A DNA stretch of 64,000 nt from an uncultured Pelagibacteraceae bacterium (GTDB taxonomy: Bacteria; Pseudomonadota; Alphaproteobacteria; Pelagibacterales; Pelagibacteraceae), in NCBI GenBank assembly GCA_902556855.1, contig CACDXJ010000002.1, positions 1 to 64,000 of the forward strand, read 5' to 3'. Positions within the stretch are counted from its first letter, which is position 1, and each line of letters begins with the position of its first letter. Under the pieces are notes generated by a model. The model had not been told where the DNA came from. It was given only the letters and a program-made list of their open reading frames with translations, and ran no database searches. A program made the position numbers and the translations under genes. Of this stretch, positions 549 through 1,358 are shown piece after piece.

Positions 549-820
549 TCAAGATCTATTAAGTTTAAAATCTAGGTATAAGGCAGCAGACCATGAAAAG
601 TTATTAGCGCCCATTACTAAACCTGATTTGCAACTATAATATTCTCGAAATTTTTTTTTTCGACCAAATTAATAGTCTTTTTTCTTATAATTTTTGCAAG
701 ATTTTTATCTTTGTTTTTTAAACCTTGATAAATAATCCAATTACAATTGATCCATACAGGTCCTCTCCTATATCTCTCTTCCTCGAAAGATTTATGTTTA
801 GATTTTATAGACGGAAAAAG
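549..820 (-). pseudogene. Remnant of the C-terminal part of a GH63/mannosylglycerate-hydrolase-like glycosidase, frameshifted at a 10-bp homopolymer
   Basis: Minus-strand translation: PSIKSKHKSFEEERYRRGPVWINCNWIIYQGLKNKDKN...LVEKK, then in another frame FREYYSCKSGLVMGANNFSWSAALYLDFKLNRS*. The frame break falls at the T10 run (651-660). No N-terminal portion is present. Confidence 0.7.
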
Positions 821-1134
821 ATATTATCAATAAAAATACATTAAAATTCTTAAATAAAGATATTCAATTTGAAAATTTAAATTTTAATAATGAGGTTTAT
901 ATTGGAATAAGACCTGAAGATATTTCATTAGAAAACAAAAGTGAAATCACAGCTAAAGTTAAGATAGATCTTATTGAAAATTTGGGATCTGAGAAAATCA
1001 TTTACACACACATAAATGGATCAGAAATTAGAATAAAAAGCACTCAAAATATCAAAGATGAGAATATTACAATTTACTTACCGAAAAATAAGATATATTT
1101 ATTCGATGAAAATAAAAATAGATTAAAAGTGTGA
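811..1134 (+). pseudogene. C-terminal (TOBE-domain) fragment of a MalK/UgpC-type sugar ABC transporter ATP-binding protein
   Basis: Open frame without a start: TEKDIINKNTLKFLNKDIQFENLNFNNEVYIGIRPEDISLENKSEITAKVKIDLIENLGSEKIIYTHINGSEIRIKSTQ...LFDENKNRLKV*. 'IGIRPEDI' and the terminal 'LFDENKNRL' are hallmarks of this family; the nucleotide-binding domain is absent. Confidence 0.75.
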
Positions 1135-1161: not shown

Positions 1162-1235
1162 GGCCACGTGGCGGAATGGTTACGCAGAGGATTGCAAATC
1201 CTTTTATCCCAGTTCGATTCTGGGCGTGGCCTCCA
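1162..1235 (+). tRNA. tRNA-Cys (GCA)
   Basis: GGCCACGTGGCGGAATGGTTACGCAGAGGATTGCAAATCC...CAGTTCGATTCTGGGCGTGGCCTCCA; cloverleaf, anticodon GCA, encoded CCA. Confidence 0.95.
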
Positions 1236-1282: not shown

Positions 1283-1358
1283 TCCTCGGTAGCTCAGTTG
1301 GTAGAGCAGTTGACTGTTAATCAATTGGTCGCAGGTTCGAGTCCTGCCCGAGGAGCCA
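1283..1358 (+). tRNA. tRNA-Asn (GTT)
   Basis: TCCTCGGTAGCTCAGTTGGTAGAGCAGTTGACTGTTAATCAATTGGTCGCAGGTTCGAGTCCTGCCCGAGGAGCCA; anticodon GTT, encoded CCA. Confidence 0.95.

Follow-up and report, generated by a model that had tools for sequence, protein, structure and literature searches.

Wilhelm et al. (2007; PMC2217521) described gene-content polymorphism in SAR11 bacteria, in indels and hypervariable regions that involve transport genes and tRNA-flanked sites. In the SAR11 genus analyzed here, the interval from valS to tRNA-Cys is a variable slot: many species have a five-gene cassette there, of which the window (the whole 64,000-nucleotide stretch analyzed, which opens contig C2, with base 1 at the contig end) carries two fused gene remnants. 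The closest characterized homologs of the cassette hydrolase are TTHA0978 of T. thermophilus and the glucosylglycerate hydrolase GgH of M. hassiacum (MhGgH; PMC6608630). The enzyme of an intact SAR11 relative is homologous to both over its full length (E 1.8e-89 and about 1e-48, respectively) and, in the alignment, keeps the catalytic Asp and Glu (Asp182 and Glu419, MhGgH numbering) as well as the substrate residues listed for MhGgH (PMC6608630). The remaining genes are of the MalK/UgpC (CUT1) type: in intact relatives a MalK-type ATPase, two BPD_transp_1 permeases and an SBP_bac_1/8 binding protein stand together as a CUT1 sugar ABC importer set, whereas the window retains only the regulatory C-terminal part of MalK, without its ATPase domain. 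In the available parts of the literature on mannosylglycerate, glucosylglycerate and glucosylglycerol, no paper describing this SAR11 cassette was found; one paper reports glucosylglycerate synthesis genes in offshore genera.

The intact cassette and its slot

Relatives were identified through the conserved helix-turn-helix gene adjoining the tRNAs, found in 110 of the 169 genomes of the genus (one genome per species), and the flanking regions were retrieved. An intact cassette is present at the same site and in the same orientation in about 42 same-genus genomes, comprising 39 loci (some ended by contig ends before valS) and 3 with only part of MalK on the contig. The gene order is valS, GH63 (420 aa), MalG-like (402), MalF-like (419) and binding protein (440), all on the minus strand, followed by MalK (351, plus strand) and tRNA-Cys, and the cassette measures about 6,237 bp (6.2 kb). 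Every protein matches its family, and the intact MalK passes the cutoff of the NCBIfam UgpC subfamily. The intact GH63 protein scores 279.6 bits against the cutoff of 550 for the NCBIfam equivalog NF047898 (glucosylglycerate hydrolase); we therefore regard it as a homologous and mechanistically similar enzyme with a predicted substrate. By homology, the cassette would import a glycoside and split it inside the cell, with glucosylglycerate or mannosylglycerate as the most likely substrate. The same five genes occur together in other genera, without adjoining valS or tRNA-Cys in the loci fetched, and GH63 is present in 4 of the 14 genera sampled of the family.

Across the genus, amino-acid identity of the binding protein reaches 97–99% (intact loci such as G010 and G034), while MalK of the same cassettes is mostly at about 85%. 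In one otherwise intact cassette (G191, L147) MalF is read in two overlapping frames. A candidate nonsense mutation of MalG in two intact cassettes was rejected, as the stop sits just before the probable true start. Five genomes of other genera (G390, G542, G382, G550, and G305; L209–L213) have GH63 split into two frames beside unbroken transporter genes (all or part found, some ended by contig ends), reflecting either decay of the hydrolase only or homopolymer errors.

In place of the cassette, 50 loci have a conserved intergenic region (97–117 bp in 49, 72 bp in one), which we read as the uninserted allele. That these sites of approximately 100 bp are fully eroded scars was considered and rejected, since their sequence is itself conserved and resembles neither the GH63 nor the MalK end. 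This sequence, running from valS to tRNA-Cys and replaced by the cassette, is strongly conserved genus-wide (TTTATATCA...TAGATTT.GCTTTATT...AAATGATTTAAA) and probably contains the native promoters. For 85 shared genomes, the valS tree requires 6 changes in cassette presence and the downstream tree 12, a pattern from which we infer joint spread of the cassette and valS by homologous recombination. In one genome (G098, L150) valS is cut to 85 aa within a contig, probably an assembly fault.

The slot also accommodates other genes. The sulfotransferase-like gene at the start of the window is an insertion between valS and the cassette site. In the genome of the window (G000) valS lies on a separate contig (C13), adjoining an APS-kinase-like gene, which indicates inserted DNA between valS and the scar. 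Several genomes have APS-kinase-like and/or sulfotransferase-like genes inserted at the valS side of the slot (the window at 3–461 and C13:2-427 of the same genome, L064; also G114, G028 and G153), possibly a small sulfation module reusing the slot. An intact ABC-transporter and GH cluster between the sulfotransferase-like gene and tRNA-Cys, as anticipated in the initial annotation of the window, is present in G153 (valS, sulfotransferase with 71% amino-acid identity to that of the window, intact GH63 to MalK, tRNA-Cys). From its gene order we take this locus to show the parental structure of the one in the window, and the left flank of the scar to be sound. Inserts of 2–11 kb between tRNA-Cys and tRNA-Asn in seven genomes (G015, G141, G145, G072, G083, G169, and G142) make that gap a second insertion hot spot.

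The scar in the window

The source genome comprises 761 kb in 34 contigs, with a completeness of 68%, and the scar lies ~0.5 kb from the end of contig C2. The features of the locus are listed in Table 1. An Rfam search of the locus matched the tRNAs only, and a terminator scan of positions 400–1400 of the window found none.

Table 1. Features at the cassette site of the window.
Feature	Position	Strand	Evidence
Sulfotransferase-like gene, 5′ part, truncated at contig start	3..461	-	Pfam Sulfotransfer_2 1.9e-4; 71% aa identity to complete G153 homolog
GH63 mannosylglycerate/glucosylglycerate-hydrolase-like 3′ remnant (aa about 330–420 of 420; stop at 549–551)	549..823	-	Pfam MGH1-like_GH 4.9e-14; 87–88% DNA identity to intact relatives
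Run of 10 T breaking the GH63 frame, 1 base shorter than in nearest relative	651..660		Sequence and alignment
Deletion junction, microhomology AAAAGATAT(T)	816..825		5,664 bp missing compared with G034
MalK/UgpC-type ABC ATPase 3′ remnant (aa 247–351 of 351), with TOBE/OB region	817..1134	+	Pfam TOBE_2; 87% aa identity over aa 247–351
Conserved nucleotide element within MalK 3′ end; candidate tRNA-Cys promoter region	1065..1107	+	Synonymous-codon identity, alignment, AAG codon use
tRNA-Cys(gca), right boundary of cassette site	1162..1235	+	ARAGORN, Rfam
tRNA-Asn(gtt), conserved neighbor	1283..1358	+	ARAGORN, Rfam

The initial annotation had recognized a C-terminal remnant of a GH63/mannosylglycerate-hydrolase-like protein on the minus strand and one of a MalK/UgpC-type ATPase on the plus strand, both without N-terminal parts and beginning at a shared breakpoint, with the GH63 frame broken at a 10-bp homopolymer. 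The family searches and the intact orthologs bear this out, and the coordinates proved correct to a few bases. Once the frame break is bridged, the GH63 remnant matches Pfam MGH1-like_GH over 86 aa and above the curated cutoff (E 4.9e-14), the 63 aa of the unbridged frame alone do so at 3.1e-8, and the remnant matches PDB 2z07 (TTHA0978) at 5.9e-14. The MalK remnant is just over the cutoff for Pfam TOBE_2 (1.6e-4) and matches PDB entries 4tqu (AlgS, 3.9e-6) and 6yir (MsmX). Compared to the nearest intact relatives, DNA identity is 87–88% over 325 bp on the GH63 side and 88.5–89% over 357–587 bp on the MalK side.

The GH63 stub is now decaying. Unlike the characterized GH63 hydrolases, it consists of about the last 90 residues, without a complete catalytic domain and with the equivalent of Asp182 gone, and it has an arginine in place of the tryptophan equivalent to Trp376 of MhGgH, a substrate-interacting residue (PMC6608630). 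It is changed at 5 of the 54 columns that are invariant in 31 intact copies, where an intact copy averages about 0.5 changes. The frame break amounts to one base within a homopolymer and may be due to a sequencing error. The MalK remnant has no changes at 23 invariant columns and a pN/pS of 0.32, the same as intact copies; this lack of excess amino-acid change points either to a recent deletion or to constraint on the stub. The designation of both genes as fresh pseudogenes thus suits the MalK part, which is free of decay, and not the GH63 part, with its frame break and five changes at invariant columns.

Both remnants are collinear with the intact genes of relatives, at the same site and in the same orientation, and they are fused through the microhomology AAAAGATAT. 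In the alignment to the nearest intact relative (G034, SAG AG-917-F18), positions 503–825 and 816–1172 of the window match places that are 5,664 bp further apart, with AAAAGATAT common to both sides at the join; the chance of at least 9 bp of homology at a random junction is 0.0002. One junction accounts for the whole loss. The window therefore very probably carries the scar of a single deletion of the GH63-to-MalK cassette that left the two outer 3′ ends, in agreement with the earlier proposal that one deletion removed a divergent sugar uptake and hydrolysis cluster: relatives carry the predicted cluster beside tRNA-Cys. The homology at the join suggests a microhomology-mediated mechanism. 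In the proposed course of events, a single such deletion between the outer genes, in the lineage of the window, would have taken about 91% of the cassette and left the 3′ ends fused and directed outward; the GH63 stub would then have decayed, while part of the MalK stub would probably have been kept by selection as an upstream control region of tRNA-Cys. In the genome of the window, a 68% complete assembly, the region does not occur a second time and a binding protein is absent; the missing genes could lie elsewhere, unassembled.

Parallel losses and the retained malK end

Searching the genus with the window scar yielded further scars, all with different breakpoints. GH63 residues 390–418 touch MalK residues 309–351 in G142 (microhomology ATATTCTC); a few GH63 codons are joined to MalK 329–351 in G070 (microhomology ATAAAAG); G184 has GH63 387–420 and MalK 288–346 with about 31 bp of unmatched sequence; and in G107 MalK 310–351 remains, with GH63 gone, its stop included. 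G023 and G155 have MalK ends only. The five clear scars are placed separately on the valS tree, mostly among intact genomes, and together with the different breakpoints this counts for at least five independent deletions. The initial annotation had considered fresh pseudogenes unusual for so compact a genome; this is not borne out, as the cassette was lost independently several times in the genus. The resolved scars removed 91–98% of the cassette, retaining a length that differs in every scar (118–580 bp), and partial cassettes inside contigs were not seen among the loci fetched around the tRNAs in the genus.

Every scar retains at least the last 23 MalK codons. In intact MalK genes, synonymous-codon identity lies between 0.59 and 0.82 through aa 320; for aa 321–352, the final two bins, the values are 0.88 and 0.85, a rise from about 0.65 to 0.88. 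About 55–100 bp upstream of tRNA-Cys lies a conserved stretch, ATTACAATTTACTTACCAAAAAATAAGTTATATTTATTCGAT, which scars adjoining the tRNA keep with few changes (41 intact loci aligned with 6 scar loci), and which is kept although the spacer after the MalK stop varies. A Lys codon within it is AAG in 35 of 37 genomes, compared with 9% in the rest of MalK. The full element is missing from the MalK ends of other genera, which do not adjoin tRNA-Cys. A sigma-70 scan of positions 400–1400 of the window gave promoter-like hits that were not above shuffles, and consensus scans of this type neither back nor rule out a tRNA-Cys promoter in the malK end. Taken from sequence conservation, the MalK stub probably holds the tRNA-Cys promoter; G070, which has a 0.9-kb insert between the tRNA and the MalK stub, is the exception to a requirement for the element. 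The wider proposal, that loss is recurrent and nearly all-or-nothing with the malK end always kept because the tRNA-Cys promoter has moved into the malK coding sequence, is one that we put forward tentatively, as slightly less than an even prospect. If true, a metabolic cassette inserted here would have taken over the promoter of an essential tRNA, with valS and that promoter setting the limits of its loss.

The nucleotide-level constraint on the MalK end and its presence in all scars might also suggest that the whole stub is a functional remnant, e.g., a small RNA or small protein, rather than decaying debris. We consider this very improbable: the constraint spans only about 45–95 bp beside tRNA-Cys, the GH63 part is decaying, the retained length varies from scar to scar, and the tRNAs are the only Rfam matches. 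An origin by recombination, in which the lineage of the window never had the full cassette and received the fragments from an already scarred genome, is unlikely in our judgment. Cassette state follows the valS allele more than the downstream marker, so alleles of the site do seem mobile, but the junction of the window is absent from every other genome of the 169 in the genus (one per species), and such an origin merely shifts the same deletion event to another lineage.

An artifact, with parts of an intact cassette fused by an MDA chimera or an assembly join near the contig end, is rated marginally lower than transfer of a ready-made scar. The named relatives belong to the AG- series, which we take to be single-cell amplified genomes, and MDA would apply if the genome of the window is a single-amplified genome too; the scar is moreover close to a contig end. 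Short homology at the join is typical of MDA chimeras as well, but direct joins of <10 kb are rare among them (11 of 475, with about half of all forms in reversed order; PMC1855051). A consensus contig would require the chimera to be dominant, and a join made in vitro would not produce the decay of the GH63 stub. The scars of G070, G107, G142, and G184, each with another join, sit within contigs of 41–332 kb. Core genes (valS, ilvD, manC) of the same loci are truncated in 1 of ~77 loci, versus 7 of 49 for the cassette (Fisher p 0.006; p 0.029 if only the 5 clear scars are counted). Given the GH63 decay, the rarity of direct MDA joins and the contrast with core-gene truncation, we hold the deletion to be real. 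It is judged fairly recent.

Relation to known gene-content variation in SAR11

At this site gene loss is seen under way in the most streamlined of all free-living bacteria, with intact, freshly broken, eroded and never-inserted states that can be compared at one position. It permits estimates of how often and in what manner SAR11 loses an uptake function, and of whether loss tracks the supply of a picocyanobacterial compatible solute. An overlap of malK with tRNA-Cys control would explain why debris is retained in a streamlined genome. The word "pseudogene" is absent from the SAR11 indel study mentioned above, and its passages on such variation do not mention the cassette (PMC2217521). The slot resembles the gene indels described there, some of which are polymorphic like alleles, and differs from them, as far as those passages go, in that a broken intermediate and its junction are visible and that separate deletions have taken the same cassette in parallel. 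Deletion scars are of a known kind (SAR11 gene indels, PMC2217521); what makes this one useful is the parallel near-complete loss, which merits further attention along with the constrained stub.
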